64,000 nucleotides of DNA, from NCBI RefSeq assembly GCF_041435055.1, contig NZ_CP108002.1, forward strand, positions 6,076,001 to 6,140,000, given 5' to 3'. Below, in pieces: positions 14,342 through 36,106 of the stretch. Numbering within the stretch: the stretch's first letter is position 1; every line of letters begins with the position of its first letter. Under the pieces are notes generated by a model. The model had not been told where the DNA came from. It made no database searches and worked only from the letters and a program-made list of their open reading frames with translations. The position numbers were made by a program, and so were the translations under genes. The stretch is from Streptomyces sp. NBC_00341. Its GTDB lineage: Bacteria; Actinomycetota; Actinomycetes; Streptomycetales; Streptomycetaceae.

Positions 14342-14929
14342 ATGGTTGACAGTGTGGCCCGTATTACGCGCATTGAGATGCCGGACGGCACGCCGGTCTG
14401 GGCCCGGATCTCGGGAGCCGAGGAACTGGACGGTCCGGCGGCCGGTTCCGGCCCGACATATACGGACACCGGGTTCGGTGACATCGCCGACCAGGTGCAG
14501 GCACGCGTCGAGAGCCTCCACTCCGTGGTGACCAGCGTCGCGCGCTCGCTCGCCGTGCCGCTGCGCGCCGTGCGGCCGGACGAGGTCAGCGTCGAGTTCG
14601 GGATCGAGCTCACCGCCAAGTCGGGCCGGATCGTCGGGCTCCTCGCGGACGGCGAGGCCAAGGGGGCCATCAAGGTCACGCTCACCTGGAACGGTGGCGG
14701 ACCCCCCGTCGACCCGCCCCCGCCGGCCCCCGTACCCGTACCCACGCCCGTCCCCGTACCCGCGCAGGCCCCCGCGCCTCCGGCGTCCGTGCCGCCGGTT
14801 CCGTTCGCGCCCCCGGGGGCCCCGCCCGCCGCACCGGCGCCCGCGCCCCCCGGCCCGCCCGCCGGTGCGTCTCCCGGCGCCCCGGCGCATCCGGACGGCG
14901 CGGACGGCACGGACGGCGGCGGGACATGA
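14342..14929 (+). CDS. Trypco1-domain (CU044_2847-type) protein, first gene of the conflict island
   Basis: The 195-aa protein has an N-terminal ~115-residue domain ending in the typical EVSVEFGIELTAKSGRIVGLLADGEAKGAIKVTLTW, the trypsin-co-occurring domain 1 (Trypco1). The rest is an extreme Pro/Val/Ala linker (PVPVPTPVPVPAQ and similar) ending in DGADGTDGGGT. Trypco1 proteins accompany trypsin- or CHAT-type proteases in regulated conflict systems and are thought to be adaptors or substrates. The stop overlaps the next start as ATGA, so it is translationally coupled to the trypsin gene. A GGGGGGTG site precedes the ATG. A second Trypco1 gene opens the third block of the island at 28079. Confidence 0.85.
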   Translation: MVDSVARITRIEMPDGTPVWARISGAEELDGPAAGSGPTYTDTGFGDIADQVQARVESLHSVVTSVARSLAVPLRAVRPDEVSVEFGIELTAKSGRIVGLLADGEAKGAIKVTLTWNGGGPPVDPPPPAPVPVPTPVPVPAQAPAPPASVPPVPFAPPGAPPAAPAPAPPGPPAGASPGAPAHPDGADGTDGGGT

Positions 14930-16995
14930 GTCCGGAGGCCGACGGGGGCGCGGACGGGGGCTCGGGGCAGCCGGAGACTGCGCTCATGGGCCTCGTGCAC
15001 GACGCCACCGTGCGCATCCATCGCCCCGGGGCCGGGTATGCCCAGGACGGACCCGGCGGGGAGTTCCTGGGGAGCGGCTTCTTCATCGCCCCGAGCTGGA
15101 TCCTCACGTGTGCGCACGTGGCGATGCGGGGGGAGGGGGGCGTGGTGAACGTGTGGTTCAAGGAGGACCGCTACAGCACCGAACTGAGCGAGGTGCCGGG
15201 CAAGGTCGTCGTCGCGATGCCCGGCGCCCGTCCGCAGGGAGCCCCCGGCTGGCCGGCCCCCGACCTCGCGCTCATCAAGCTCCAGCGGCCCGTCGAGCAC
15301 ACCTGCGTCTACGTCACCGAGCGCTCCGAGGCCATGCTCCGCAGCCGGGAGATCCACTGCGTGGGCTGGGCGCCCTCGCAGGGCGGCGGGCTGCTGAAGC
15401 GCAGCGGCGTCTGCGTGGTGAAGGGGTCCTACGGCGCCTCGGACGACGCCGAACAGGTCGTCCGGCTCGACGGGGACTGGCTGGAGCCCGGCATGTCCGG
15501 CGGACCCGTGGTCGATCTCGCCCGGGGGGAGGTGGTCGGCGTGATCAAGTCGCGGCTCGACAACCACCAGGGCGGCACAGCCGTGGGGATCGAGCGGCTG
15601 CGCACCCTGAAGGTGCCGTCCGCGCCCGTCGAGACCGAGGCCGACGACACCTACCAGTCCGTCTTCCACGCCCACGACCGCTACCACGCGGACCGGCACA
15701 ACAGCCCGGCCAGCACCGAGCGGACCTGGGCCGACGTGCAGAGCGAGCTGGCGAACCCGCCCGGCGGCGCCCTCGGCCCCAAGCGGCGGGCGGACCTGCT
15801 GGGGCGGCTCGCCGAGTTCCCGCCCCCGGTCAGCACCCGCGGCCTGCTCCTGCTCCTGGACGCCCTGCCCGGCGTCCACTCCCGTGACCACCGCCCGGCC
15901 CCGCGCGGCTGGCGCGACGGTCTGGGCGCGCTGTACGACACCCGCGCCCGCGACCGGGACGCCCCGCTCGAACTGGTCCTGCGCTACTGCATGGGCGTCC
16001 TCGTCGCGGAGCGCCCGTTCGACGTGCCCTCCACCAGGACCGCCGCGAAGTCGCTGTGGGAGTGGGTGAAGCGGATCGCGGAGGAGGAGCTGTCCCGGGA
16101 CTTCCGCCGGCAGCTCGCCATGGAGTGGGCGGCCGTGCGGCTGCGTCTTGAGGAGAACCGCCGCCGGGCCGTCACCCGGACGGGTGGGTCCGGCCGCCAC
16201 GCTGAACGCCCCTGTGTACTGCTGGCGCTGGAACCCCAGGGGTGGGCCCGGGACCGCTACGACTGGCGGATCGGGGTAGCCCGCCACACCGGGGAGATGC
16301 TGCCCGTCGACGAGGACAGCCAGGGCGCCGCGCTCGACCCGCTGCCGGACCGGCTCGTGGCCGCGCTGACCGAGGCTTTCCGGCAGTGCGACGAGCCGGG
16401 CAGCCCCGCCGTCCTCCAGGTCGCCCTCACGCCCGCGCTGTTCGGCCTGCAGGTCGACCGCTGGACGCTTCCCTCGGACGGGCTGCCGCTCGGTGTCGTA
16501 CGCCCGGTGGTGCTGCGCAGCACCGTCCACGGGCCGGCCGAAGAGCGCCTGGCGCGCTGGACGCCCACCCAGGGCAGCGGGACACGGGCCGAAGTCGTCG
16601 ACTGCGAGAACGAAATGCGGGTACGAGTACCGGAGGTCGCGCAGCTGCGCACCCTGGCCCACGAGAGCGTGCCGGTGCTCTGCCGTTACGGCAGCCGGCC
16701 GGACCCCGAGATCACGGCCGGGGTGGTGCGGGTGCTGGAGACCGGCTTCGGCGTGGCCCTGCTGCAACGGCGGCCGACGGAGACCGACACGGTCTGCCGG
16801 GAATTCCACCGACGCGTGACCGAGGCCGTCTCCGACGCCCGGTCCCGTGACGTGCTGCCGCTGAAAATGCTGGAGCTGAGAAAGGGAGTACGTGCGGAAC
16901 GCCCCGAGACGTACTGGTCCGATGGAATTGCCCTGTTCTACGACGATCCGCACCATCCGCTGCCCGGTTCGGACGAGTTCTTGGAGGCGCCGTGA
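14926..16995 (+). CDS. Trypsin-like serine protease with VMAP-type C-terminal region
   Basis: Residues ~20-215 form a chymotrypsin-fold protease with an intact triad: His64 in TCAHVA, Asp113 in APDLALIKL and Ser191 in EPGMSGGPVVD. There is no signal peptide, so it acts in the cytoplasm. The remaining ~470 residues include a helical middle domain (QSELANPPGGALGPKRRADL) and a C-terminal region (LALEPQGWARDRYDWRIGVARH onward) that resembles the VMAP (vWA-MoxR-associated protein) middle and C-terminal domains. With the Trypco1 gene before and MoxR and vWA genes after, this is the protease effector of a vWA-MoxR-VMAP ternary system. The system role is from published comparative genomics; specific activity here is inferred. 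Confidence 0.85.
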   Translation: MSPEADGGADGGSGQPETALMGLVHDATVRIHRPGAGYAQDGPGGEFLGSGFFIAPSWILTCAHVAMRGEGGVVNVWFKEDRYSTELSEVPGKVVVAMPGARPQGAPGWPAPDLALIKLQRPVEHTCVYVTERSEAMLRSREIHCVGWAPSQGGGLLKRSGVCVVKGSYGASDDAEQVVRLDGDWLEPGMSGGPVVDLARGEVVGVIKSRLDNHQGGTAVGIERLRTLKVPSAPVETEADDTYQSVFHAHDRYHADRHNSPASTERTWADVQSELANPPGGALGPKRRADLLGRLAEFPPPVSTRGLLLLLDALPGVHSRDHRPAPRGWRDGLGALYDTRARDRDAPLELVLRYCMGVLVAERPFDVPSTRTAAKSLWEWVKRIAEEELSRDFRRQLAMEWAAVRLRLEENRRRAVTRTGGSGRHAERPCVLLALEPQGWARDRYDWRIGVARHTGEMLPVDEDSQGAALDPLPDRLVAALTEAFRQCDEPGSPAVLQVALTPALFGLQVDRWTLPSDGLPLGVVRPVVLRSTVHGPAEERLARWTPTQGSGTRAEVVDCENEMRVRVPEVAQLRTLAHESVPVLCRYGSRPDPEITAGVVRVLETGFGVALLQRRPTETDTVCREFHRRVTEAVSDARSRDVLPLKMLELRKGVRAERPETYWSDGIALFYDDPHHPLPGSDEFLEAP

Positions 16996-17155
16996 CCAGA
17001 CGCGCCGGTCATCATGTGGAAAGGACACCTGAGGACCGTGCCGGTCCTCTTACGGGGGGTGCGGCTGATCGCTACGGTAAAGCACGTTCGACGGCTGCCG
17101 TCCCGGGTGGACCAGCTGCCGTACCCCGGCGGACGAGTGACACAAGGACCACGCT

Positions 17156-18178
17156 ATGAGTGAACCCACTGAGTGGCTCATCTACCGCGGGATCGGTGAA
17201 CCGCACGACGGTTTACCGCAGTTGCCGCCACCGCCGCCCTGGCGTGACTTCTCGGGCGGCCTGGGCGCCCCGGCGGACGGGGACGACTCCGCGGACCGCC
17301 GGCTCGGCATCCCCGGACGCATCGCGGAGGAGCACCGGCCGGGCGCCGAGGAGCTCGAAATGATCAACGCCGCGCTGTATCTGCGGCGGCCACTGCTCGT
17401 CACCGGGGACCCGGGGGCCGGGAAGAGCACGCTGGCCCACTCGGTGGCCCGTGAGCTCGAATTCGGCAAGGTGCTGCGCTGGCCCATCGTCAGCCGCTCC
17501 ACGTTGCTGGACGGCCTCTACCACTACGACGCGATCGCCCGGCTGCAGGACGTGCAGATCGCCTCGCACGCGGCCGCGAACGGCGGCGACGGAGCCGACT
17601 CCGCCCAGAACGTGGGCAGTTACATCCGGCTCGGCCCGCTCGGCACCGCCCTGCTCCCCTCGGACCGGCCCCGGGTGCTGCTCATCGACGAGCTCGACAA
17701 GAGCGATATCGACCTGCCGAACGACCTGCTCAACGTGCTGGAGGAGGGCGAGTTCGCCATTCCCGAGCTGGAGCGGATCGTGGACCGGCTGCCCGACGGC
17801 GAGGCGGACGTGCTCGACCACGACGGCAACAAGGTGCGGATCAAGGGCGGCCGGGTGCAGTGCCGGGCGTTCCCGTTCGTCGTCCTCACCAGCAACGGCG
17901 AGCGGGACTTCCCGGCCCCCCTGATGCGCCGCTGCATCCATCTGGAGCTGGACCGCCCCGACCACAAGCGGCTGGCCTCCTTCGTCAAGGCCCATCTGGG
18001 CGAGGAGGCGGCCCGCTCCAGCGAGGACCTCATCGCCCGATTCCTGGAGCGCTCCCGCAGCGAACTCCTGGCCACGGACCAGTTGTTGAACGCCATCTAC
18101 CTCACCCACGCCGCTGCGCCGGCCGGCCGTGACCGGCTGGCCGAACTGCTCATCCAGCGGCTCGACCGGCCGAGGTGA
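17156..18178 (+). CDS. MoxR-type AAA+ ATPase of the VMAP ternary system
   Basis: The 340-aa ATPase has Walker A GDPGAGKST (residues 84-92), Walker B VLLIDELDKSD (about 174-184), a sensor-1 Asn in VVLTSNGERDF and a sensor-2-like Arg in LMRRCIHLEL. The N-terminal ~55 residues are Pro-rich and unstructured. MoxR ATPases act as remodelling chaperones with vWA partners, and the next gene is a vWA protein starting eight bases after this stop. It lies 160 bases after the trypsin/VMAP gene, so it may have its own promoter in that gap. Conserved acidic and aromatic residues around LLDGLYHYDAIARLQD are typical of the subgroup linked to SAV_2336 proteins. Confidence 0.9.
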   Translation: MSEPTEWLIYRGIGEPHDGLPQLPPPPPWRDFSGGLGAPADGDDSADRRLGIPGRIAEEHRPGAEELEMINAALYLRRPLLVTGDPGAGKSTLAHSVARELEFGKVLRWPIVSRSTLLDGLYHYDAIARLQDVQIASHAAANGGDGADSAQNVGSYIRLGPLGTALLPSDRPRVLLIDELDKSDIDLPNDLLNVLEEGEFAIPELERIVDRLPDGEADVLDHDGNKVRIKGGRVQCRAFPFVVLTSNGERDFPAPLMRRCIHLELDRPDHKRLASFVKAHLGEEAARSSEDLIARFLERSRSELLATDQLLNAIYLTHAAAPAGRDRLAELLIQRLDRPR

Positions 18179-18185
18179 GGTACTG

Positions 18186-21100
18186 ATGCCAGGGGCGGAC
18201 GACGCCGGCGCACTGCCCGGTGCGGCCGGCGCCTCGGAGCCGTACGACGGAGAGCTCCTGCAGGCGCTGGTGGCCCGGCTGCGCGGGGCCGGGCTCGACC
18301 CCGACGTCGAGCAGCTCTGCGACGCCCTCTGGCTGGCGAGCCGGACCGGTGCGCCCGACGGCCCGGAGCAGGAGGGGGACGAGCCCGGGGCGCCGTCCCC
18401 GGACGCGCCGACCCCCCGGGAGCAGGCCGGCCCGGGAGTGCGGCAGGGGCCGGGCGCGGGCGGCGGTCGCACCGCGGACACCGGCCGACCCGACGAGGAC
18501 CGTGAGCCGGGTGACGGGCCGGCCGCCGACGGACGCATCGCCCTGTACCCCGACCCCGGCACCCCGCGCTCGGGAGCCAACCGGGACGGAGACGACCGGG
18601 ACGGGGGCGGCGCGCCGGACCGCCGCAGATCCGCGGCCGGGACCCGAGGCACCGAACTCGCGCTCGGTGTACCGGCCGCCCCGGTCCTGCCCGCACCCCT
18701 GGAACTCACCCGCGCGCTGCGCCCGTTGCAGCGCTACCGCCCGGTCTCCGCCCCGCTGCGCCGCACCCTGGACGAGACGGCCACCGCCGATCTCAGCGCC
18801 CGCGCGGGCGGCATGGTCATGCCAGTGTTCCGTGGCGTCGGCCGGGGCGACGCGATCCTCCAGTGCGTCATGGACGCCTCGTCCTCCATGCTGGTGTGGG
18901 ACCGGATGTTCGGTGAACTCCAGCAGATCTTCGGCCAGTTGGGCGCCTTCCGGGATGTGCAGGTGCGCTATCTGCACCAGGGCCCGGACGGCGGCTGCAC
19001 AGTCAGCCGGAGCTCCGACCCCGCCGCGGCCCCGCTGCACTCCGCCGACCGGCTCAGCGATCCGACCGGGCGCCGGGTCACCGTGGTGATCAGCGACTGC
19101 GCCGGGCCGCTCTGGCGCAGCGGACGCGCCCACCGGCTGCTGCACCAGCTCGCCCGGCAGGCCCCGGTCGCCGTGCTCCAGCCGCTGCCGCAGCGCATGT
19201 GGAACCGCACCCGGCTGCCGGTCACCTTCGGTTCGCTCTCCCGGGGTGACGGCCTCGCCGGAGCCACCCTGCTGAAGGTCACGGAGGACGCCGGAACCGG
19301 CCCCGCCGTGCACCCCGGCGCCCTCGCCGTCCCGGTCCTCCCGCCGGCGCCGGACGCGCTGGCGGCCTGGGCCAGGCTGCTCTCCGGCACCGGTGCGGCC
19401 CGGATCTCCGGAGCGGTCGGCTGGGTGCGGGCCGACCAGCCCCCGGCGGCCGTCCAGCGCTCCGGCGCCGTCCTGTCCTCGCTCCAACTGGTCAGCCGCT
19501 TCCGGTCGACGGCCTCACCTGCCGCCGGACAGCTGGCCGTCTACCTCGCCGCCGCGCCCCTCTACCTGCCGGTGATGCAGCTCGTGCAGCGCACCATGCT
19601 GCCGCAGTCGGGCCCCTCGGAACTGGCCGAGGTGCTGCTGAGCGGACTGCTCTCGCGCGCCGACGGCGCGGGCGGCGGACGCGGCCAGTGGTACGCGTTC
19701 GAGCCCGGCGTCCAGGAGGCGCTGCTCGGACCGCTGGGCCGGGACGAGGCACTGCTCGTACTCAAGCACTGTTCGCAGTACATCGAGACACGGTTCGGCA
19801 AGGGCGGTCCCAACTTCCCGGCGCTGGCCTTCGCCCAGCTCGGTGACGCGGGGGCGGACGACTCCCCGTACGCCACCGGACACGCCGGCACGGGCACCGG
19901 GTACCGGGAGTCCGGCCGGGGTGACCGGGGTGACCAGGGTGAGGAGAAGGAAGAGAGCGACGACAGCGAGGAGAACGAGGCGGACGGGACGGCGGGGGTG
20001 CGCGGCGGCCCCCGCGCACCCCATGCCTTTGCCGAGGTCGCAGCCCGCGTACTGGAGCGATTCATGCCTGTGCCCCCCAGATTCGTGATCCCGCCGAAGC
20101 CCCCCGTCCCCGGACCGCCGCCCCCCGGCACCACCTCGGTCGTGGAGCGGGCCCGCGAGCTGGTGCGGCAGTTCGACGCCGACAAGATGGTGCAGCGCCT
20201 GATCGACGCGGTCCAACTCCTGCGCGGAGCCACCGAGAACGGCCCGCGGCAGTTCGTCGACCCCGGACTCTGGGCGGAGTACGCCCGCTGCGTCCTGCGG
20301 CTCTGGGAGGTGCAGGGCGGCGGCGAGCTGCTCCGCGAGGCCGAGCGCGCCGCGGAGCGGGCCGCCGCCGTCCCCGGCGCGGTACGCGAACGGGCGGTGC
20401 TGGCCAAGGTGCTGCACGCGGCGGCCGACGACCGGCGGCGCCACGGCGACCGGCGCGGCGCCCTGGAGCTCCTGCGGCGCGCCGACCGCGAGTACACCGC
20501 CGCCTGCGCCGCCCCCGGCCTCGCCCCGGCAGAGGCGCTCCGGCTCACCCTGGAGCGGGTGCGGGCCCTGGAGGCGCAGTGGCGGCTCGACGGGGACAGC
20601 GCCCTGCTGCAGAGCGCCTGCGGGATGCTGGAGGCCTTCGCGGACGCCTGGCCCGACCAGGAGAACCGGCCGGCCGCCCTCCCGCTCCAGCACGGCCGGA
20701 CGCTGCTGAAGCTGGCCGGCGCCACCGAGGACACCGAACGGGCCAGGGAGTTCGCCCGGCAGGCAGCCCGCTCGCTGCGCACGGCCTTCGCCCAGGGCGG
20801 CCGGCACACCATGGGCACCGAGGTCCGCATCGTGCTGGACCTGGTGGACGCGCTGCTGGCCTCCGGCGAGGAACCGGACGAGGCCGCCACCCTGACCGGC
20901 CAGGCGCTGGAGACGGTACGGGAACAGCGTCAGCGCGCCCAGCTGCAGACCAGGGCCGGACGCGTCCGGGTCGCCCGCTACGAGCACACCGGCGACCCGG
21001 ACGAACTGGTGGCGGCCGCCGACTGGTTCGCACGGGCGGCCCGAGGCACCCCCCGGGACTCCCGGGCGCACGCCGACCTGCTCGCCGAATGGGGCGGCAC

Positions 21101-21677
21101 GCTGCTGCGCCGCGCCGAACTCCCGGACGGCGCGGCGCACATCGGGGCCGCGGTGCGCGTGCTGCGCGACTGCCGGACCGAGACGCCGGCCGGCGGCCCG
21201 CACCAGTCGGAGCGGCTGCTGATGCTCGGCCGGGCCCTGATGCTGCGGCACCGGGCGACCGCGGACCGGGTGGACCTGCGGGAGGCCGAGTACCTCTTCG
21301 GGCTGGCGGCGCAGGAGGCCGCGGACCCGCTGACCGCGGCGCGCTGCTGGCTGGAGCTGGGCCGGGCACTCCTCGACGCCGCCGACGCGCTGGCCCGGCC
21401 GACCCGGCGCGACGAGGCGGCGGAGGCCTTCCGCTCGGCCGCCGCGTCCGCCGCGGCGGCGGAAACGGAGCTGGAGAGTCCGCAACAGCTCCGGGAAGCC
21501 GTCGAGTTGGGTGCTACAGCCAACCACTGGCGGGGTATGACCTATGAGAGAGCGGGGCGTCCCCGGGCCGCGCGAGAGGCCTACCGGGCGGCCCGCCTGG
21601 AGTGGCGCAAGCTGCCGGACGGCGGCGGAGCCGCGGGCGACCGGACCGCGGAGCGGCTGGCGGAGCTGGAGCGCTGA
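18186..21677 (+). CDS. SAV_2336-type vWA protein with TPR-like C-terminus
   Basis: The 1163-aa protein starts with a SAV_2336 N-terminal-like helix (LLQALVARLRGAGLDPDVEQLCDALWLA), followed by a disordered acidic/Pro linker, then a von Willebrand A domain with an intact MIDAS DASSS (Asp230, Ser232, Ser234) and TVVISDCAGPLW. Residues ~600-1160 are Ala/Leu/Arg-rich helical repeats with TPR-like spacing (RGALELLRRADREYTAA; ARTLTGQALETVREQRQRA region). It is the large scaffold partner of the MoxR ATPase. ATG 18186 is preferred over an in-frame upstream start because a GAGGT site lies just before it and the earlier start would overlap the MoxR gene. Stop is followed at once by the first of two hairpins preceding fxsA. 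Confidence 0.87.
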   Translation: MPGADDAGALPGAAGASEPYDGELLQALVARLRGAGLDPDVEQLCDALWLASRTGAPDGPEQEGDEPGAPSPDAPTPREQAGPGVRQGPGAGGGRTADTGRPDEDREPGDGPAADGRIALYPDPGTPRSGANRDGDDRDGGGAPDRRRSAAGTRGTELALGVPAAPVLPAPLELTRALRPLQRYRPVSAPLRRTLDETATADLSARAGGMVMPVFRGVGRGDAILQCVMDASSSMLVWDRMFGELQQIFGQLGAFRDVQVRYLHQGPDGGCTVSRSSDPAAAPLHSADRLSDPTGRRVTVVISDCAGPLWRSGRAHRLLHQLARQAPVAVLQPLPQRMWNRTRLPVTFGSLSRGDGLAGATLLKVTEDAGTGPAVHPGALAVPVLPPAPDALAAWARLLSGTGAARISGAVGWVRADQPPAAVQRSGAVLSSLQLVSRFRSTASPAAGQLAVYLAAAPLYLPVMQLVQRTMLPQSGPSELAEVLLSGLLSRADGAGGGRGQWYAFEPGVQEALLGPLGRDEALLVLKHCSQYIETRFGKGGPNFPALAFAQLGDAGADDSPYATGHAGTGTGYRESGRGDRGDQGEEKEESDDSEENEADGTAGVRGGPRAPHAFAEVAARVLERFMPVPPRFVIPPKPPVPGPPPPGTTSVVERARELVRQFDADKMVQRLIDAVQLLRGATENGPRQFVDPGLWAEYARCVLRLWEVQGGGELLREAERAAERAAAVPGAVRERAVLAKVLHAAADDRRRHGDRRGALELLRRADREYTAACAAPGLAPAEALRLTLERVRALEAQWRLDGDSALLQSACGMLEAFADAWPDQENRPAALPLQHGRTLLKLAGATEDTERAREFARQAARSLRTAFAQGGRHTMGTEVRIVLDLVDALLASGEEPDEAATLTGQALETVREQRQRAQLQTRAGRVRVARYEHTGDPDELVAAADWFARAARGTPRDSRAHADLLAEWGGTLLRRAELPDGAAHIGAAVRVLRDCRTETPAGGPHQSERLLMLGRALMLRHRATADRVDLREAEYLFGLAAQEAADPLTAARCWLELGRALLDAADALARPTRRDEAAEAFRSAAASAAAAETELESPQQLREAVELGATANHWRGMTYERAGRPRAAREAYRAARLEWRKLPDGGGAAGDRTAERLAELER

Positions 21678-21695
21678 GTGCTCAATGGCGAGCAC
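21678..21695 (+). repeat. Hairpin copy 1 (loop AATGGC) upstream of fxsA
   Basis: GTGCTC (21678-21683), loop AATGGC, GAGCAC (21690-21695). It starts directly after the stop codon of the vWA gene and shares the 14-base core GCTCAATGGCGAGC with a second copy exactly 120 bases downstream. Confidence 0.6.
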
Positions 21696-21796
21696 CCGGC
21701 ACGGCCGTGCGCCCGGACCGGGCCGGGGCACGACCGGCGCAGGGCGGCGGCACGGGCAGAGGGACGAAGCGGGTCAGGGACGTGGGACCGGCGGTG

Positions 21797-21816: not shown

Positions 21817-21852
21817 GCGCGGGCGGCCCGGTGCTGAGTACGGGGAGGCGTG

Positions 21853-22068
21853 ATGAACGAGTCGACACGTAACGACGGGGCGGCAGTACCTGACGGCACG
21901 GGCGGCGGTACGCCCGGAGCCGCGGGTGCGCTGCCGGATCTGCTGGGTCTCGATCTGGAGACCCTGCGGACCCTGCACCACCCGGTGCTGGCCGAGGTGG
22001 TCGCGGATCTGCGCGGCCGGGCCGAACAGCCCAGGGAAATGCTCTGGGGGTTCAACAACGCCTTCTGA
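21853..22068 (+). CDS. fxsA: FxSxx-COOH-family RiPP precursor with FxNxx ending
   Basis: The 71-aa precursor has a disordered Gly/Ala N-terminus, then the conserved Fxs leader helix (LPDLLGLDLETLRTLHHPVLAEVVADLRGR, positions ~28-57), and ends LWGFNNAF. In the FxSxx-COOH family the last five residues are F-x-S-x-x, where the maturase joins the Phe ring to the beta carbon of the third residue (three-residue cyclophane). Here residues 67-71 are F-N-N-A-F, so Asn replaces the Ser. A GGGGAGG site lies six bases before ATG 21853; an adjacent GTG at 21850 is possible. It is followed by the maturase gene after ~170 bases. Family identity is firm; the final modified form is inferred. Confidence 0.9.
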   Translation: MNESTRNDGAAVPDGTGGGTPGAAGALPDLLGLDLETLRTLHHPVLAEVVADLRGRAEQPREMLWGFNNAF

Positions 22069-22085
22069 GCGGGGCGGCCCCGCAG

Positions 22086-22125
22086 CGCCCCGGCCCGGAC
22101 CCGCACGGTTTCGGCCCGGGGCGCG
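22086..22125 (+). terminator. Weak hairpin between fxsA and fxsB
   Basis: CGCCCCGGCC on the left can pair with GGCCCGGGGCG on the right with one bulge. A partial terminator here would leave the precursor transcript in excess over the maturase, as is common in RiPP loci. Confidence 0.4.
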
Positions 22126-22240
22126 GCCGATCAGGACATCATCGTCCGGTCCGGGTCTGCCCGCGCCGCGCGCCGGGGATACTCACCCCGGGCCGGTGCC
22201 GGTGACCGTCCCGGCAGACGTACAGCACGGGGGTGCCGGA

Positions 22241-27995: not shown

Positions 27996-28078
27996 GTCGC
28001 TGCCCGCATTCCGACCCATGGGTGAGGGAGCGTCAGTAACCTTGTAACGCAGGTCGGTTGGTGATCCAGGGGGCGCGT

Positions 28079-28492
28079 ATGGCTGTCGTTGTGGGTTCTG
28101 TGGCACCGGGGGAGGACGGTCCGATACCGGTCGTGGTGGACGCCGAGGCGTATCTCACGACCGGGGCGCCCGCCACCGACGTGGACTCCCTGTACGACAG
28201 CGAGGAGACCCGGGCCGCGTCCGACGCGGCCCGGCGCGCCCTGGGGGCGGCCGGCGATCTGTACGGGGACGGCCTGGACCTCGCCCGTCGGTGCGCCTCC
28301 CAGGCCATGCGCAGACTCGGTGACCTGGGGCAGGGGCTGCGGCCCGACGAGATCGAACTCCAGGTCGGCATCACCTTCGAGGCCGGGATGGCCGCCGTGG
28401 TGAAGACCGGTGCGCAGGCGCAGATCCAGCTCACCTTCCGCTGGCAGCCGGGGCGCGAGGACCTGGCCACGGCGACGGTGACGCCTTCATGA
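28079..28492 (+). CDS. Second Trypco1-like protein, first gene of CHAT block
   Basis: The 137-aa protein ends in EIELQVGITFEAGMAAVVKTGAQAQIQLTFRW, clearly the same fold as the C-terminal half of the Trypco1 protein at 14342, followed by a short tail rather than a long Pro linker. The N-terminal half has a helix (AASDAARRALGAAGDLYGDGLDLARRCASQAM). ATG 28079 is preceded at seven bases by CAGGGGG; an upstream GTG at 28058 lacks a site. Its stop overlaps the next ATG (ATGA), coupling it to the ChlI-type ATPase. By analogy with block A it should partner the CHAT protease encoded downstream. Confidence 0.82.
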   Translation: MAVVVGSVAPGEDGPIPVVVDAEAYLTTGAPATDVDSLYDSEETRAASDAARRALGAAGDLYGDGLDLARRCASQAMRRLGDLGQGLRPDEIELQVGITFEAGMAAVVKTGAQAQIQLTFRWQPGREDLATATVTPS

Positions 28493-29427
28493 GCGAGCCG
28501 GACCGCGCGGTCCCGATCCTCCCGTACAGCCGCGTCGTCGGGCAGGACGAGCTGAAGCTCGCGCTGGAGCTGAACTTCGTCGCCCCGGGCATCGGCGGCG
28601 TCCTGATCGCGGGACAGCGCGGCACGGCCAAGTCCACCGTCGTACGCGCCTTCGCGCTGATGACCGGCGGCCGGCTGCCCGTCACCCTGCCGATCAACGC
28701 GACCGACGACCGGGTGCTCGGCGGCTGGGAGCTGGACGCGCTGATGCGCGGCGAGGCGAGAAGGCAGACCGGACTGCTCGAAGAGGCCCACGTGAAAGGG
28801 CTGTTGTACGTCGACGAGGTCAACCTCCTGGACGACCACATCGTCAACATCATCCTGGACGTGGTCTCCACGGGCGTGCTGTCCGTCCAGCGCGAGGGCA
28901 TCGACACCGAGACCCATGTCTCCTTCGGGCTCGTCGGCACCATGAACCCGGAGGAGGGCAGCCTGCGCGCCCAGTTGCTCGACAGGTTCGGACTGATGGT
29001 CACCGCCGCCGGGCTCACCATCGAGCAGCGGCACCGGATGATCACCACCGTGCTCACCTTCGAGGAGGAGCTCGCAGTCGACGGCTCGGCCTGGCTGCGG
29101 GCCGCGCACGAGGAGAACGGGCGGCTGCGCGAACGGCTGCTGGCCGCCCGGGAGCGGCTCACCGGGGTCCGGCTGGAGGAGGACATCAGCCGGCTCTGCG
29201 CCGAGGCGGCCGCCCGGTCCGGCGCCGTCGGACAGCGCGGTGACCTCCTGGTGGCCAAGGCGGCCCGCGCGCTGGCGGCCATGGAGGACGAGCGGCGGGT
29301 GGAGCCCCGGCATGTGCACCGGGTGCTGCCGCTCGCGCTGCGCCACCGCAGGCCCGAGTCCGCCCACGGCGCGGAGTTCGCCTGGGGGCCGGACGAGTAC
29401 GGCATCCTCGACGATCTGTTCGGCTGA
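28489..29427 (+). CDS. Mg-chelatase subunit I (ChlI/BchI)-type AAA+ ATPase
   Basis: The 312-aa ATPase carries Walker A GQRGTAKST (42-50) in the form typical of Mg-chelatase I, not of MoxR, then LLYVDEVNLLDD (Walker B, about 105-116), REGIDTETHVSF, GTMNPEEGSLRAQLLDRFGLMV (sensor 1 and the Arg finger region). No porphyrin or cobalamin genes are near, and its partner is the following ChlD-like vWA gene, so chlorophyll or cobalt chelation is unlikely; an AAA+/vWA remodelling pair serving the CHAT protease is the better reading. Starts on an ATGA overlap with the Trypco1 gene and ends five bases before the next start. Confidence 0.9.
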   Translation: MSEPDRAVPILPYSRVVGQDELKLALELNFVAPGIGGVLIAGQRGTAKSTVVRAFALMTGGRLPVTLPINATDDRVLGGWELDALMRGEARRQTGLLEEAHVKGLLYVDEVNLLDDHIVNIILDVVSTGVLSVQREGIDTETHVSFGLVGTMNPEEGSLRAQLLDRFGLMVTAAGLTIEQRHRMITTVLTFEEELAVDGSAWLRAAHEENGRLRERLLAARERLTGVRLEEDISRLCAEAAARSGAVGQRGDLLVAKAARALAAMEDERRVEPRHVHRVLPLALRHRRPESAHGAEFAWGPDEYGILDDLFG

Positions 29428-29432
29428 GCCGC

Positions 29433-31385
29433 GTGTCCGCCCGGCCGCCGCACGCCCAGGAGCCGCAGGAGCGGGACGACGACGCCCACCGGCTGCTGAC
29501 CGCGCTCGTCTGTTCCGCGCTGGAGCCCGCCCTGACCGGTGTGCTGCTCTTCGACCTGCCGCCCGAGCACGTCCCCGCCGTGGCCGGGGTGTTCGCCGAG
29601 GTGCTCGGAGTGGCCGCGGACCGCCCGCCGGGGGCCGTGCCCCGCACCACGCTCGACGCGGCGACCGCCGACGAGGACCTGTGGCTGCGGCCCCTGGTGC
29701 GGCGGAGCGCGGGCGGCATCGAATTCACCCTCGGGCCCGGACCGCTGGCCGAGACGGCGGACAGCCCACCGCTCGTCCTCGTGCCCGACCTGGCCCGGCT
29801 GAGCGTTCCGGGGATGCGGGCCGCCGTCCAGCTCCTCGGCGCGGACACCGCCACCCTCGAACACTCCGGCATCCGGCGCCGGTGGACGCCCCGCGCCCGG
29901 TGGTTGGCGTTCTGCCGGGCCGAGGACGCCGCGCACCTCTCGCCGCACCTCCTGGACCGCTTCCCCGTCCGGCTCGGCGTACCCGGTCTGCCCCCCCTGC
30001 CGGGCCACGAGCCGCTCGGCCCGCTCCCCGCCGCCTGGGCCGCCGCGCTGAGCCCGCGCACCCCGCGCCGCCCCACCACGCTCAGCGACGGGTTCGCCGC
30101 GTCGGTGCTGGAGCAGCTGGACGACCGGGAGGGCCTCGGCCACCGCAGAGCGCTCGCCCTGGGCCGCATCGCACGCGCCCTGGCCCGGCTGGACGCCGCC
30201 GAGGAACGGGAGCGGCCCGAGACCTCCGCCGAGGCCGGTACCCCGGCCCCGGTGATCCCCGACGCCCCCGTCCTCGTCACCCCCGTCCACGTCACCCCCG
30301 TACACGTCGGCCGGGCCGCCCGGCTGATCCGGCTGCGGACGGCCCACCGGCCGTCGGCGCCACCGCCCGAGTCCAACCCCGCGCAGGAGCCGCCGCCCAC
30401 GCCAAGGCCCGGCCCGTACCGGCCGGCTCCGGACCACGGCCCCGGACCCGAACCGCCGCCCGAGACCGGCCCGTTCGTACGGGAGCCGGAGTCCGCCGTC
30501 CCGCTCGGCCCGGCACCGGTCCGGAGCGAGGCGCCCGGCCCCTTCTCCCCGTACCCGGAGGACGGCGCGGGGTCGGGACCCGACGGGGCGACGCTGCGGA
30601 TTCCCGCCCGCCGGACAGCGGGCGCCCGCGCCTCGCGCGGTGCCGTCGTCGGGGTGCGGCGCGCTCGGGACCTGTGGGACCTCGCGCCGGTCCGCACCGC
30701 GATGGAGGCCGCGAAGTACCGGGCGATACGCGGCGGCCGGGGCCCGCTCGTGATCGTCCCGCAGGACCTGCGCGGCTATGTCCGGGCGCCGGAGCCCGTC
30801 CGGCTGCTCACCCTCGTGCTCGACCACACCTGCCGGGGGGACTGGGACTGGCACCCGGCGCTCGAACCGTTCCTGCGGTGGGCCTACGTCACCCGGGCCG
30901 CCGTCCACGTCGTGGAGGTCGGTGCCCGGGGAGCGGCGAACGAGCTGCGGGCCGGTTCGTTCTCCGCCCGGTCCACCAGGGACCCGAGGATCGCCGCCGC
31001 ACTCGCGCGGCCGGCCGGCCGCGCCACCCCGCTCGCCCACGGCCTCGACCAGGCCGGCAGCGCCCTGCGCCGGGCCTTGCGGCACCATCGCGCCGGACTC
31101 GTCGAGGCCGTGCTCGTGGTCGTGACCGACGGCCGGGGCAATGTGCCGCTGGCCGCGGGCCGTACCGGACGCCGGGGGAGCGGACCGGCCGGCCGCACCG
31201 GCACCACGGACGCGGTGCGGGCCGCGGAGCGGATCCGGGCCCTCGGCCGCAGCCGGCTGCACAGCGTGGTGATCGACCCCGGGCGGCGGCCGTACACCGC
31301 ACTGCCCGCCGAACTCGCGGACGCACTCGGCGCCCACGTGATCGCGGCGCGGGCCGACGAGGAGGGGGCCGGCCGTGCGCGATGA
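29433..31385 (+). CDS. ChlD-like protein: degenerate AAA region, Pro-rich linker and vWA domain with altered MIDAS
   Basis: The 650-aa protein resembles Mg-chelatase subunit D: an N-terminal region related to AAA+ but without Walker motifs (residues ~20-240), a Pro/Glu-rich linker (~250-370), and a C-terminal vWA domain introduced by ARDLWDLAPVRTAMEAAKYRAIRGG. The MIDAS is partly lost: the expected DxSxS is D464-H-T-C-R, while the Thr (T532, ATPLAHGLDQAG) and the Asp of VVVTDGRGNVPL (D566) remain. Metal-dependent ligand binding may thus be weak or altered. GTG start at 29433. The last 11 bases overlap the CHAT gene. Functional partner of the preceding ATPase. Confidence 0.82.
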   Translation: MSARPPHAQEPQERDDDAHRLLTALVCSALEPALTGVLLFDLPPEHVPAVAGVFAEVLGVAADRPPGAVPRTTLDAATADEDLWLRPLVRRSAGGIEFTLGPGPLAETADSPPLVLVPDLARLSVPGMRAAVQLLGADTATLEHSGIRRRWTPRARWLAFCRAEDAAHLSPHLLDRFPVRLGVPGLPPLPGHEPLGPLPAAWAAALSPRTPRRPTTLSDGFAASVLEQLDDREGLGHRRALALGRIARALARLDAAEERERPETSAEAGTPAPVIPDAPVLVTPVHVTPVHVGRAARLIRLRTAHRPSAPPPESNPAQEPPPTPRPGPYRPAPDHGPGPEPPPETGPFVREPESAVPLGPAPVRSEAPGPFSPYPEDGAGSGPDGATLRIPARRTAGARASRGAVVGVRRARDLWDLAPVRTAMEAAKYRAIRGGRGPLVIVPQDLRGYVRAPEPVRLLTLVLDHTCRGDWDWHPALEPFLRWAYVTRAAVHVVEVGARGAANELRAGSFSARSTRDPRIAAALARPAGRATPLAHGLDQAGSALRRALRHHRAGLVEAVLVVVTDGRGNVPLAAGRTGRRGSGPAGRTGTTDAVRAAERIRALGRSRLHSVVIDPGRRPYTALPAELADALGAHVIAARADEEGAGRAR

Positions 31386-32676
31386 CCCCCGCAACGTGAT
31401 CCGGCGTCTCGGCCGGCTGGCCGGACAGGCGCTGCCCGTGCCCCGGGCCGCCGTGCCGGCCGGGGCACGGACCGGCGCACCGCAGGGGCTCGGCGCGGTG
31501 GCCGTCGACGCCGGACAGGCACCCGGCACGAGGTACGCCCGGGTCCGGGTGCGGCGCCACCGCTCCTCGCCGGGGCTGCCGGAGGCGTACGGCTTCGAGG
31601 CCTGGTGCCACGGTGTCGCGCCGCTTCCGTACACCTCGGGCGACGGCCAGCGGCGCCCGGCCGCCATCAGCCTCGGTAACGCCCGGCCCGGCGGCGAGCC
31701 GCCGTCCGAACTGCTCCGCTCCATCCGCCGCTGGTCGCAGAACCAGGGCCCGCTGACCGGCTGGATCAACCGGTGCCGGCAGGTGCACGGCGACAGCCTC
31801 CAGCTCGTGGTACTCGACCAGACCGGCTTCGACCTGCCCTGGGAGGCGCTCACCCTGCCCCCGGCGCCAGAGGCGGGGCTGCCCGGCGGGATGCTCGGGA
31901 CGCTCGTCGACCTGGCGCGCTGGTTCGACGCGGTCCGCGGCGGCGACGACTTCCCGACCGGTGTCGCGGCCCCGGCCGGCGCGGTGCTCGGCTACTTCCA
32001 CCCGGACATGCGCGCCGACCGGGAGGTCTTCCACGGCTACGAACACCGCCCGCACTCCGGCATCGTGTCCTTCCTGAGAAGCCTGGACGAACACACCGCG
32101 GACCCCACCGGCCTGGTCTACATGGGCTGTCACGGAACCTTCGACCAGGAGCTCAGCAAACTCACCCTGGCCGATGTGACCTGGGCGGAGTACCACGACC
32201 ACGGCATGAGCCTGCTCGGCCGGGACGGTTCACTGGTCTGCCTCAACGCCTGCCACTCCGGCCGCTTCCTGGACCACGACGGGGACGGCAGGCAGTATCT
32301 GCGGGGCTTCACGGAGGTCTTCCTCGGCAACGGGGCGGGCGGCTGCATCGTCACCGCGGGGAAGGTCGGTGACGCGGAGGCCCGCGAGCTGATCCGCGGG
32401 CTCGTCGAGACGGTGACCGCGGACCCGGCCCGGCCGGTGGCGCGGGCGCTGCGGGCCTTCCGGACCGGAGCGCACGAGAGGTTTCTCGCGGAGGGCGGGG
32501 TTCCGTTGATGGTCAGGGACGACGGCACGTTCGACGAGCGGGGACAGCGCAACGCCCTGCGGCTGCTGTACAGCCTGATGTTCCAGTACTACGGGCACCC
32601 GCTCAGCACCCTGCACCTCACCGGCCGGTCCCCGGACGGCGGCCCGCGCGGGGGAGGGGCCCGCGGTGAACGGTGA
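31375..32676 (+). CDS. CHAT-domain (caspase-like) protease
   Basis: The 433-aa protein has a CHAT/caspase-HetF-type cysteine protease domain in its C-terminal two thirds. The catalytic dyad is visible: His253 in VYMGCHGTFD and Cys293 in SLVCLNACHSGRFLD, with the usual spacing and the G-x-x-I-V-T-A strand (GGCIVTAG) after it. A preceding segment LVVLDQTGFDLPWEALTLP is characteristic of CHAT N-terminal parts. It takes the place held by the trypsin gene in block A. Starts with a GTG overlapping the vWA gene by 11 bases, and its own end overlaps the next gene by 11 bases. CHAT proteases are often effectors of cell death or immunity; substrate here is unknown. Confidence 0.88.
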   Translation: MRDDPRNVIRRLGRLAGQALPVPRAAVPAGARTGAPQGLGAVAVDAGQAPGTRYARVRVRRHRSSPGLPEAYGFEAWCHGVAPLPYTSGDGQRRPAAISLGNARPGGEPPSELLRSIRRWSQNQGPLTGWINRCRQVHGDSLQLVVLDQTGFDLPWEALTLPPAPEAGLPGGMLGTLVDLARWFDAVRGGDDFPTGVAAPAGAVLGYFHPDMRADREVFHGYEHRPHSGIVSFLRSLDEHTADPTGLVYMGCHGTFDQELSKLTLADVTWAEYHDHGMSLLGRDGSLVCLNACHSGRFLDHDGDGRQYLRGFTEVFLGNGAGGCIVTAGKVGDAEARELIRGLVETVTADPARPVARALRAFRTGAHERFLAEGGVPLMVRDDGTFDERGQRNALRLLYSLMFQYYGHPLSTLHLTGRSPDGGPRGGGARGER

Positions 32677-35600
32677 CGAGCGGCCGCTGCTGATCGAGCC
32701 CGTCGTGGGCTGGCTGAGCGAGGTCGGACCCGGGGTGGTCCAGTGCGTCGGCGTCGACCTGCGCGGCCCGCTGAACGCCCGCGACGAGGAGGACAGCGAG
32801 GCGTGGCCGTACGAGGAGGAGGAGCTGGCCTTCAGCGTCTCCCTGGACGGTGCCCCGCACTTCGTCTGCGAGGTGCTCGACGACCCGGGACTCGTACTGC
32901 ACCGCTTCGGCGGTACGTACGGGCCTGCCAGGTTCCTCGTCACCGCGGGCCCCGCGACCGGGCCCGGCGTACTGCGCCTGACCATCTCCAACCAGTGGGG
33001 CGCCCCGGTCCGCAGGGCCGAACTGCCCTGCCGCATCCAGGAGTCCGCAGAACCGGTCGGGACGTGGGCCGGGAAGTACGCGGGGCGGCCGCCGGACTCC
33101 GAGGACGTCGACGAGACCGTGGGCGCCGAACCGCCCGAGCGGAACAGCGGACCGGTGACGGCCCGGCGGCCCCGGCCGGACACCTCCGCCCCGGCCCCGG
33201 ACACCTCCGCCCCGGCCCCGGACACCTCCGCCCCGCCCGCTCCGTCGTCCCCCTCCCCCTCCGGAGCAGACGGCGCCATCACCCTCAGCTACGCCGACTC
33301 CGACCGGGCCTGGGCGGCATGGACCGCGGACCGGCTGGAACGCCGCGGGGTGACGGTCCATCGGAAGCGCCGGGACCCCCGGACGGGCGATTCGCCGGCG
33401 GACACCCTGCGGGCGCTGGCCCGTACCGGCGGCCGGATCCTGCTCCTGCTCAGCTCCCGCTACGTCCGGCTCGCCGGCCACGGCCGCGAGGAGTGGGACC
33501 GGGCCCTGCGCGAGGTCGTCGGCCCGGAACGCGAGCGGTTCGCGGCGATCTGGTTCACCCACACCGCCCCGCTGCGCGGCGCGGTCTCCCTGCTGGACCC
33601 GCTGGAGCTGTACGGCGTCGGCGCGGACGACGCCGAGCGCCGGCTGCTCGTACGCCTCGGGCTGCCCACCGGTCCGCTGCCCGAGGACGTCGCCGCCAGG
33701 CCCGGCCCCCACCACCCGGCCCACACGCCCGAGGTGTGGGGCGGGGTGCCGCGCCGCAACACCCGCTTCACCGGCCGCGAGGAACTGCTCGCCGGGATCG
33801 GCGAGGCCTTCCACTCGGGAGCGCCCGACGGGGCCACCGTCACCCTGTCCGGGATGCCGGGGGTGGGCAAGACGCAGCTGGCCGCCGAATACGTCCACCG
33901 GTTCGGCTTCGAGTACGACGTGGTGTGGTGGGTGCCCGCCGACCGGCGCGCCGCGACCCGCCAGAAGCTCGCCGAACTCGCGCCCGAACTGGGCCTGTCC
34001 ACCGGCCCGGAGTACGGGGAGCGGCTGCGCGCCGTGCACGAGTCGCTGCGGCGCGGCGAACCGCACGAGCGGTGGCTGGTCGTGCTGGACGGGGCCGACG
34101 AACCGGACCAGATCCGGGACCTGGTACCGGCCGGCACCGGACACGTACTGATCACCTCCCGCTCCACCGGGGAGGAGGAGGGGCGGCGGGACACACCGGT
34201 CGAGGTGCCCGCCTACCGGCGCGAGGAGTCGGTCGACTTCATCCGGCGCCGCGCCCCCCGGCTGACCCGCGCGGAGGCGGACCGGCTGGCCGAGGCGCTG
34301 GAGGACCTCCCGCTGCTGCTCGACCAGACCGCCGGCTGGCTCACCGACTCCGGCCTGCCGGTCGAGGAGTACCTCGGACTCCTGGAGCACCCGCGGCGCC
34401 ACGACGTCGTCAAGGTCTCTGCCGACTACCCGCTCGCCTTCCACACGGGCTGGTCGGTCCAGCTGACGCAGCTCCGCGAGAGCGCCCCGGAATCCTACGA
34501 ACTGCTGCGACTCTGCGCCTTCTTCGCGCCGGGCTCCATCCCGGTACGGCTGCTGGACGGCGCCGCCCTCCCCGGCCCGCTGGCGGACGACGCCCGGCGT
34601 GCGCGCGCGGTGCGTCATCTGGTCGACCGCTCCGCCGTACGCCTGGAGGCCGACCCGGACCCGCTCGCCGCCGTGGACGGCGAGGCGCTCCAGATCCACC
34701 GCATGGTCCACCAGTTCGTCCGGGACGGCATCGCCGGGAGCGACCGCCCGGTCTACCGCGAAGCGGCCCGGCGGGCACTCGCCGCCGCCGACCCCGGCGA
34801 CCCCGCCGACATCCGCCACTGGCCGGCCTACGCCGCGCTCACCCCGCACCTCAAATGGGCCGAGGTCCTGGAGAGCGAGGAACCACCGGTACAGCGGCTG
34901 GTCCTCAACTGCCTCCGTTACATGTACCTTTCGGGCGAGTACGGCAGCGGCGTCCGGTTCGCCGCCCCCGCGATGGAGTCCTGGCAGGCGCTGCTCGGCC
35001 CGGCCCATCCCCGTATCCGGGACCTGAGCCACCACTACGCCAACCTGCTGCGCGCCCTGGGCGACTACACCCGCAGCGAGGCCGTGGAGCGCACCACCGC
35101 CGAGTTCCTGGCGGCCGAGCGCGGTGAACTGGACCCGGACCACCTGCGCGCCGCCGGCGGGCTCGCCGCGGATCTGCGGGGCCTGGGCCGCTACCGGGAG
35201 GCGCTGGACCTGTCCCTCTCGATCCGGGACCGCTACCGGCGGCTGCTGGGCGACGACGACCCCCGGACCCTCAACGCGGAGAACAACCTCGCCGTGTCGC
35301 TGCGGCTGCTCGGCCGGTACCGACAGGCCCTGGAGGCCGACGAGTTCACCCTGGAGCGGCGGCGTGCCGTGCTGCCGGAGCGGGCGCCCGCCACGCTGTA
35401 CTCGGAGATCAACCTCGCCATGGACCTGCGGCTGCTCGGCCGGCACCGGGAGGCGGAGACCGCCCTGCGGCAGACGGCCCGACACCATCTGCGCTGGATG
35501 GGCGGCAACAATCCGCAGACGCTGCGCGCCCAGTACCACCTGACGCTCTGCCAGTACGCCCTGGAGGGAGCCCGTTCCGCCCTCCCGGCGCTCACCGCCA

Positions 35601-36106
35601 CCAGGGACAGCTCACTGCGGCTGCTGGGCGAGCACGACCCGCTCACCCTCCTGATCACCACGGCGGCGGCCGGCGCGGAACGGGAGGCGGGCGACCCCGG
35701 CCGGGCGCTGGAGCTGCACGAACAGGTGGTGGACGGCTACCGGCGGATGCTGGGCGAGCGGCACCCGTACACCGTCGGCACCCAGGGCAACCTGGGCCTG
35801 ATGCGATGGGCCCTGGGGGACCGGGACCACGGGTACGACGAGATCGAACGTGCCCGCACCCGGATGTCCTGGGCGGTCGGGGAGAGCCACCCGTGGACGA
35901 TCGGCTGCGCGCTCAACGCGGTGCTCATGCGGGCCCGGACGGGGCGGCCCGGGGCCGCCGTCGAGCTGGGGCGGGCCACCTGCGAGCGCGCCAACGCCGA
36001 ACTGGGCAGTCGGCACCCGCTGTCCGTGCGCTGCTACGCGGCGATCGCCACCGTACCGGCGGATACCGAACCGGACTTCTGGCTCTTCGAGCCGCTCATC
36101 ATCTGA
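32666..36106 (+). CDS. FxsT-like TIR/NB-ARC/TPR protein with extra N-terminal domain
   Basis: This 1146-aa protein is a paralogue of the FxsT at 25002. From about residue 205 it has the TIR-like domain (ITLSYADSDRAWAAWTADRLERRG), NB-ARC with Walker A GMPGVGKTQ (396-404) and WLVVLDGADEPDQ, and C-terminal TPRs, ending FWLFEPLII. Residues 1-150 are a separate, beta-rich acidic domain (EEEELAFSVSLDG; VLRLTISNQWG) with no family I recognise, joined by a linker with three DTSAPAP repeats. GTG start overlapping the CHAT gene by 11 bases. Several stretches are nucleotide-identical to fxsT, so the pair arose by duplication. Proposed role: NLR-like sensor for the CHAT block. Confidence 0.88.
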   Translation: MNGDERPLLIEPVVGWLSEVGPGVVQCVGVDLRGPLNARDEEDSEAWPYEEEELAFSVSLDGAPHFVCEVLDDPGLVLHRFGGTYGPARFLVTAGPATGPGVLRLTISNQWGAPVRRAELPCRIQESAEPVGTWAGKYAGRPPDSEDVDETVGAEPPERNSGPVTARRPRPDTSAPAPDTSAPAPDTSAPPAPSSPSPSGADGAITLSYADSDRAWAAWTADRLERRGVTVHRKRRDPRTGDSPADTLRALARTGGRILLLLSSRYVRLAGHGREEWDRALREVVGPERERFAAIWFTHTAPLRGAVSLLDPLELYGVGADDAERRLLVRLGLPTGPLPEDVAARPGPHHPAHTPEVWGGVPRRNTRFTGREELLAGIGEAFHSGAPDGATVTLSGMPGVGKTQLAAEYVHRFGFEYDVVWWVPADRRAATRQKLAELAPELGLSTGPEYGERLRAVHESLRRGEPHERWLVVLDGADEPDQIRDLVPAGTGHVLITSRSTGEEEGRRDTPVEVPAYRREESVDFIRRRAPRLTRAEADRLAEALEDLPLLLDQTAGWLTDSGLPVEEYLGLLEHPRRHDVVKVSADYPLAFHTGWSVQLTQLRESAPESYELLRLCAFFAPGSIPVRLLDGAALPGPLADDARRARAVRHLVDRSAVRLEADPDPLAAVDGEALQIHRMVHQFVRDGIAGSDRPVYREAARRALAAADPGDPADIRHWPAYAALTPHLKWAEVLESEEPPVQRLVLNCLRYMYLSGEYGSGVRFAAPAMESWQALLGPAHPRIRDLSHHYANLLRALGDYTRSEAVERTTAEFLAAERGELDPDHLRAAGGLAADLRGLGRYREALDLSLSIRDRYRRLLGDDDPRTLNAENNLAVSLRLLGRYRQALEADEFTLERRRAVLPERAPATLYSEINLAMDLRLLGRHREAETALRQTARHHLRWMGGNNPQTLRAQYHLTLCQYALEGARSALPALTATRDSSLRLLGEHDPLTLLITTAAAGAEREAGDPGRALELHEQVVDGYRRMLGERHPYTVGTQGNLGLMRWALGDRDHGYDEIERARTRMSWAVGESHPWTIGCALNAVLMRARTGRPGAAVELGRATCERANAELGSRHPLSVRCYAAIATVPADTEPDFWLFEPLII
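33179..33238 (+). repeat. 21-bp tandem repeat encoding DTSAPAP
   Basis: Two complete 21-base units (33179-33199, 33200-33220) and a third nearly complete one encode D-T-S-A-P-A-P repeats in the linker between the N-terminal domain and the TIR-like domain. The units are identical at nucleotide level, so copy number may vary between strains. Confidence 0.8.

Follow-up and report, generated by a model that had tools for sequence, protein, structure and literature searches.

A chelatase-type ATPase and CHAT protease module joined to an FxSxx peptide locus beside kgd in Streptomyces

The window analysed here is a stretch of 64,000 nucleotides from Streptomyces sp. NBC_00341 (contig NZ_CP108002.1, positions 6,076,001 to 6,140,000), in which 13 genes (14342-36106), all on the + strand, form an island of three consecutive blocks, A, B and C. 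Block A encodes a Trypco1 protein, a trypsin-VMAP-C protein, a MoxR-like ATPase and a vWA protein. Block B is a cassette for a ribosomally synthesised and post-translationally modified peptide (RiPP), with the precursor FxsA, the maturase FxsB, a HExxH protein and the TIR-NB-ARC-TPR protein FxsT1. Block C contains a second Trypco1 gene, a ChlI-type ATPase, a ChlD-type vWA partner, a CHAT protease and a second FxsT (FxsT2), whose N-terminal domain has been named HRFGG here. We judge, with moderate confidence, that two ATP-driven conflict modules sharing one effector family are combined in the island, and that block C gates exchangeable HRFGG effectors. An earlier note on this DNA had proposed a single integrated system; its description of 13 co-directional genes, of A and C as functional parallels (each with an ATPase, a vWA protein and a protease), and of the FxsA/FxsB/HExxH/FxsT cassette lying between them with a second FxsT ending C, which profile matches support, has held.

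Block C exists independently of A and B. A scan for HRFGG in one genome per species, based on the HRFGG alignment and one peptide pattern and missing divergent members, gave 77 stretches, 61 of which were kept (L187 and L190 being opposite ends of a single chromosome). Counted by hand, they comprise 46 Actinomycetota, 14 Cyanobacteriota and one Chloroflexota, and their genera are all, we presume, filamentous or mycelial. The recurrent order is ChlI, ChlD, CHAT and a variable effector, the HRFGG open reading frame (ORF) being directly behind CHAT in most loci. CHAT is found in 60 of the 61, ChlD in 58, ChlI in 49 and Trypco1 in 40, contig ends explaining many of the misses, and the catalytic His and Cys of CHAT are retained in 60/63 ORFs, the exceptions being two fragments in L201 and the ORF of L241. 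Outside Streptomycetaceae, block C mostly occurs without A or B. Of all 61 loci, 28 have kgd, each with an FxsT-type effector. When 20 of the 28 loci with other effectors were scanned, these proved to be VMAP-C, caspase (one of them with FGS), STAND-type ATPase with TPR and TPR only (three each), amylase-like (2), and TIR, AAA_16-TPR, CHAT-FHA, NACHT-HEAT and NACHT-GUN4 (one each), with none in the remaining locus. In the window itself, the Pfam scan found no VMAP-C in the block C proteins and no match for the ChlD-type protein, whose AlphaFold model divides into a BchI-like AAA+ portion and a vWA domain at the C-terminal end. Either sequencing error or decay has split the B-C stretch of L201, from Streptomyces sp. 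P3, into many frames.

The HRFGG domain occupies about 125 residues at the N-terminus of FxsT2, where the Pfam scan gave no match. Searched for among some 5.8 billion proteins, the domain gave 124 and 36 matches with many different partner domains: TIR-NB-ARC-TPR, caspase, trypsin with EAD2, VMAP-C, CHAT-STAND-TPR, WD40 with EAD2 and NACHT-HEAT, as well as phosphoesterase, GlgX-like and exoribonuclease-like sequences. Ten architectures were checked, the exoribonuclease-like one by precomputed Pfam annotation only. Across 13 diverse members 16 alignment columns are invariant, and across 45 members 14. The AlphaFold model (predicted local distance difference test, pLDDT, 89.9) is an eight-stranded all-beta sandwich, and the predicted fold is immunoglobulin-like (Ig-like). 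As a small non-enzymatic domain fused to many different effectors, HRFGG shares the trait of the effector-associated domains (EADs) described by Kaur (2020) and Burroughs (2021); here and below, published systems are compared on the basis of excerpts of the papers cited. It differs from the EADs of those excerpts in its all-beta Ig-like fold and in its copy number, a single HRFGG ORF being found in each of the 61 loci and no second copy on a core component at E 1e-5 in the stretches scanned. The signature offers a handle for effector discovery, and genes in the slot behind CHAT are predicted to encode its clients. At both chromosome ends of Streptomyces cyaneochromogenes (L187 and L190), CHAT adjoins an HRFGG-trypsin-EAD2 gene, and in L215, L220 and P0097 HRFGG is joined to GlgX- or amylase-like enzymes.

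More than one link ties block C to A or B, and the association is beyond chance. In the 10 kb read upstream, FxsB or HExxH together with a second FxsT accompanies the FxsT-type effector at 26/27 loci, versus FxsB at 1/23 loci with other effectors (Fisher 6e-12, uncorrected for kinship), with L222 as the exception in the first group and L223 in the second; the frameshifted L201 was assigned to the FxsT type by hand, and the truncated L189 was counted in the other group and lies outside this 10-kb set. In Actinomadura sp. OS1-43 (L213), HRFGG is fused to VMAP-C and followed by MoxR and a SAV_2336-type vWA gene, and in Actinoplanes xinjiangensis (L223) its fusion partner is FxsC (NF040588, 141 bits, cut-off 130), FxsB and FxsT coming next. 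The ChlD tree places 33 FxsT-type rows in one clade (Shimodaira-Hasegawa-like approximate likelihood ratio test, SH-aLRT, 99), with L223 and L222 elsewhere, the latter on a long branch. Co-occurrence beyond chance across Streptomyces, which the earlier note had suggested checking, is seen in the fact that FxsB and FxsT stand directly upstream of C, on the same strand, in 14/14 readable loci. That note had also set the opposite case, in which A, B and C would occur independently with block borders at random; block C does stand without A and B outside Streptomycetaceae, yet in Streptomyces the arrangement is non-random.

These data bear on the proposal that two independent conflict systems have in common only one chromosomal slot beside kgd. 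The slot is indeed fixed, and the gap between FxsT1 and kgd, which spans 76-353 bases in 19/31 loci lacking C, reaches 766-4106 bases in the other 12, several of them with other genes. We nonetheless regard this proposal as quite unlikely, taking into account that the effector of C is a duplicated FxsT, that effectors of this type go with FxsB in the proportions given above, that B-C is kept at a site other than kgd in G068- and L191-type loci, and that L213 and L223 carry fusions.

Several observations weigh against the composite reading. Ties of C to A or B outside the Streptomycetaceae clade are rare, L213 and L223 being single loci of 61, and no FxsB accompanies the FxsT-type effector of L222 within the stretch read. 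Trypco1, present in 40/47 loci with enough upstream sequence, is missing in 7/47, and the gene in the CHAT position of L219 has no Pfam match. The metal site of the ChlD-type protein reads DHTCR where a standard metal ion-dependent adhesion site (MIDAS) has DxSxS, a partial resemblance, and PADLOC, having no model for block C, gave weak AAA matches only. Moreover, when the window was compared with G453, the ratio of nonsynonymous to synonymous substitution rates (dN/dS) was below 1 in all windows tested, leaving an arms race unsupported.

The locus beside kgd was followed across Streptomyces. FxsB scores over its cut-off in 77/121 genomes; 60 FxsB loci were fetched (leaving out 46 matches above 500 bits and six others), and 31/60 adjoin kgd with the vWA gene upstream of FxsB. 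The resulting 45 kgd-linked A-B loci comprise 31 without C and 14 with it, eight of the 14 coming from a C-directed search; the lack of C in 31/45, or in 31/37 within the 121-genome sample, counts against linkage as obligate. In genome searches with the CHAT profile, which in each genome scored 7 of the roughly 43-113 candidates from a first look (4 of roughly 53-96 in another search), a strong block-C CHAT was found in at least 15/246 Streptomyces genomes, plus a weak sixteenth, and in at least 2/296 in the other search, the window's own genome included. Of those 15 loci, 14 lie between FxsT1 and kgd and that of G068 elsewhere, and that of G028 is unreadable upstream, where its contig ends. 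Full block A is present at 9/13 readable kgd-linked C loci; G070 retains the vWA gene only, and G109, G014 and G469 have none of it, these absences referring to the locus. Scored by MoxR, block A is missing at 4/13 C loci versus 0/30 without C (Fisher p 0.006; L074, with its upstream part cut, was left out), which corresponds to about two events, G109, G014 and G469 grouping together in the FxsT tree. Among the 31 no-C loci, Trypco1-A has no match in 10, VMAP in 2 and HExxH in 12 (L066, L072 and ten others), whereas HExxH is found in 13/13 readable C loci beside kgd. VMAP shows 26-90% best-segment identity to the window in 37 loci, and kgd 82-98% in 44. The place of the locus is constant and its content fast-changing, the gap between FxsT1 and kgd acting as a cargo slot. 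In L071 this gap holds a Trypco1-C-like piece and in L106 an FxsT2-like piece of 282 residues, both of which look like scars of a lost C. Other genes fill the slot in L076, L085, L080, L082 and L109, the first two with extra FxsT-like ORFs.

It could be proposed that one obligate machine requires each of the three blocks, with a RiPP signal read by both FxsT proteins and proteolysis as the output. The strict order and spacing in the 13 readable kgd-linked C loci and the HRFGG fusions to VMAP-C and FxsC elsewhere are in line with such a machine, which is made unlikely by the frequent absence of C, by the MoxR losses, and by the solitary state of most C loci outside Streptomycetaceae. Thus, of the single integrated system suggested at the outset, the non-random arrangement stands, backed by the fusions to A- and B-type components in two other genera, and the mutual dependence of the blocks does not. 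Proteolysis as the output also seems less likely than CHAT proteolysis as an activating step, since the gene behind CHAT varies and CHAT is constant.

A housekeeping or developmental regulator, either a chelatase-like cofactor system or a 2-oxoglutarate sensor acting through kgd and the HExxH enzyme, has been considered as well. The ChlI-like score, kgd as a constant neighbour and the name of the HExxH family, referring to an aKG-dependent enzyme, would suit it. Nevertheless, the scores do not reach those set for chelatases, the module includes CHAT and variable effectors, block C elsewhere is not beside kgd, the convergent kgd gene changes slowly, and HExxH is frequently missing at kgd loci without C, so that a role of this kind is very unlikely; kgd is outside the system.

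Under the composite reading, the island would work as follows. In the first module (A and B), MoxR and the vWA protein would form a chaperone switch with trypsin-VMAP, the C-terminus of FxsA would be matured by FxsB and the HExxH enzyme, and FxsT1 would be a protein resembling the nucleotide-binding leucine-rich repeat receptors (NLRs). In the second (ChlI-ChlD-CHAT-HRFGG), CHAT would be controlled by ChlI, the chelatase-like AAA+ protein, together with the ChlD-type vWA protein, and the Ig-like HRFGG on the product of the next gene would recruit an exchangeable effector, in this lineage the duplicated FxsT, both modules thereby converging on TIR-NLRs. A resting complex would retain FxsT2 via HRFGG until a trigger, such as phage or damage, led ChlI and ChlD to remodel it with ATP and activate CHAT, which would then cleave the linker between HRFGG and TIR. 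CHAT would act on HRFGG effectors, a step suggested by the variable, low-complexity character of these linkers. The released FxsT2 would assemble, possibly behaving like FxsT1, with the matured FxsA peptide as a licensing or amplifying ligand, a role suggested by gene association, and its TIR domain would consume nicotinamide adenine dinucleotide (NAD) or signal, stopping the compartment. Together with A and B, block C may constitute a two-part cell-suicide or antiviral device. More tentatively, ChlI-ChlD-CHAT-HRFGG could represent a class of conflict system not described before, typical of filamentous bacteria, which at kgd would have captured the NLR-like protein of a RiPP system, placing one peptide-NLR pathway under trypsin-VMAP and CHAT switches, and which might replace a lost A. 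With block C, the ATPase-vWA conflict systems known from multicellular bacteria would gain a chelatase-type branch that has a constant CHAT and a new modular adaptor and is tied to a RiPP-NLR pathway. The natural A-B, B-C and A-B-C loci make the role of the FxSxx peptide testable.

The novelty does not extend to the whole island, since the A-B type has already been described (PMC7159879; Kaur 2020, section 24) among the VMAP ternary systems, as their FxSxx subtype; the new part of the island is block C. As in that account, the window has VMAP, MoxR and vWA in the same order, a Trypco1 protein with a trypsin, a precursor, a radical SAM-SPASM gene, a zincin-like HExxH gene and a separate TIR-AP-ATPase-TPR gene downstream, and it differs in its precursor core and in the added block C. 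The HExxH gene, termed a peptidase there, belongs to a family that NCBIfam names aKG-HExxH peptide beta-hydroxylase (TIGR04267). The tail of FxsA departs from the FxSxx motif at the third core residue, N instead of S (FNNAF), and the cores of its relatives (FDNSF, FTNAF, FNSAF, FDSVL and others) represent a loose form of it. Motif checks found the His, Asp and Ser regions of the trypsin-VMAP-C protease all present, and read by eye, MoxR has the N-terminal motifs of VMAP ternary systems (WLIYRG for WxhapG and PPWRDF for PsWRxa). The block A vWA protein gave no match in the Pfam scan; the VMAP-type vWA is described in the excerpt as fused to TPRs only. A second FxSxx locus of the same genome (L013, G000:C1:1656001-1675000) has distant FxsB and FxsT proteins, without matches to A or C.

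Regarding block C, the plan of a constant ATPase-vWA core with a variable effector has been proposed in PMC7159879 and PMC8195603. Likeness to the beta-propeller MoxR-vWA systems (PMC7159879) is seen in the score of ChlI with the Pfam bpMoxR model (38.3, above its cut-off of 27) and, together with the FtsH ones, in the GXXXTAKS P-loop; block C has instead neither beta-propeller nor FtsH, has CHAT and an HRFGG effector, and occurs in other phyla. With the iSTAND2 and TERNS3 systems (Burroughs 2021, PMC8195603) it shares the ATPase-vWA pair, exchangeable effectors and multicellular hosts, whereas the third components differ by description, and the whole word 'CHAT' is absent from the main text of that paper. 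Magnesium and cobalt chelatases have the same ChlI-ChlD AAA+ pair architecture, but block C scores under the equivalog cut-offs (274.7 vs 779; 220.7 vs 467) and has CHAT and effector partners. In Craspase TPR-CHAT, too, a CHAT protease is activated within a partner complex; block C lacks CRISPR parts, and its activation would depend on the ATPase and vWA proteins. Co-expressed CHAT, MoxR and VWA genes have been reported in Nostoc (excerpt of PMC12691664). No description of the block C arrangement or of HRFGG was found in the literature searched, supplements and most subscription journals being outside the search, nor was one of block C met in the passages of PMC10907252. Block C would be a second protease module new to that literature.

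FxsT2 is the product of a duplication. When 62 FxsT proteins were placed in one tree, the kgd-linked FxsT2 formed two clades beside the FxsT1 clade, and the FxsT copies of G068 were sisters (SH-aLRT 97), through either independent recruitment or gene conversion. In the comparison of 13 genes with G453, FxsT2 changes fastest (dN/dS 0.51, against 0.16 for FxsT1 and 0.08 for kgd).

Table 1. Features of the island and its right border (positions in the window)
Feature	Position	Strand	Evidence
Trypco1, block A	14342..14929	+	PF19493 66.9 bits, cut-off 24.6; NF041216
Trypsin-VMAP-C protein, block A	14926..16995	+	Trypsin_2 55 bits, VMAP-C 111 bits
MoxR-like AAA+ ATPase, block A	17156..18178	+	AAA_5 29.6 bits, cut-off 22; P-loop GDPGAGKS
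SAV_2336-type vWA protein, long C-terminal part, block A	18129..21677	+	NF041121 478 bits, cut-off 200
FxsA precursor, 71 residues, tail MLWGFNNAF, block B	21853..22068	+	
FxsB radical SAM/SPASM maturase, block B	21926..23533 (longest ORF)	+	TIGR04269 426.6 bits, cut-off 370; CNLACRYC
HExxH peptide hydroxylase family protein, block B	23530..24921	+	TIGR04267 162.8 bits, cut-off 40; HELQH
FxsT1, TIR-NB-ARC-TPR, block B	25002..27995	+	NF040586 873 bits, cut-off 300; Pfam TIR_2, NB-ARC, TPR
Trypco1, block C	28058..28492	+	PF19493 45.3 bits, cut-off 24.6
ChlI-type AAA+ ATPase, block C	28489..29427	+	P-loop GQRGTAKS; BchI-ChlI 220.7 bits, below cut-off 467
ChlD-type protein, block C	29433..31385	+	AAA+ part without Walker A, linker, vWA
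CHAT protease, block C, His253/Cys293	31375..32676	+	PF12770 37.5 bits, cut-off 24
FxsT2, HRFGG-TIR-NB-ARC-TPR, block C	32666..36106	+	NF040586 FxSxx_TPR 762 bits, cut-off 300; Pfam
HRFGG adaptor domain of FxsT2, about residues 1-125	32666..33040	+	
Low-complexity linker HRFGG-TIR, candidate CHAT cut region	33041..33277	+	
Strong hairpin between convergent FxsT2 and kgd	36125..36178	+	
kgd, 2-oxoglutarate decarboxylase/dehydrogenase, right border	36189..40061	-	NF008907 2095 bits; Pfam

Concerning the layout of the island (Table 1), the many 4- or 11-base overlaps described previously are confirmed in five cases, those of 4 bases at Trypco1-A/VMAP, FxsB/HExxH and Trypco1-C/ChlI and those of 11 at ChlD/CHAT and CHAT/FxsT2. 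Between ChlI and ChlD there is no overlap, since position 29424 starts a CTG codon and the first usual start is the GTG at 29433, and the overlap of MoxR and vWA may be an ORF-calling effect, given the ATG at 18186, an alternative vWA start beyond the MoxR stop. The true start of FxsB is probably downstream of the FxsA stop. The closing element, previously taken for a very strong terminator, is a strong hairpin (-56.2 kcal/mol, z -4.06), but no T-run follows it and the terminator scan did not report it.

The FxsT proteins of the kgd loci have in common a C-terminal tail, [FYW]WxFEPxx (27969-27995 and 36080-36106 in the window), which persists even where the last TPRs differ and could be a short binding motif. 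On the left flank, PadR and DUF4097 genes are found in the window and in its relatives where these were read.

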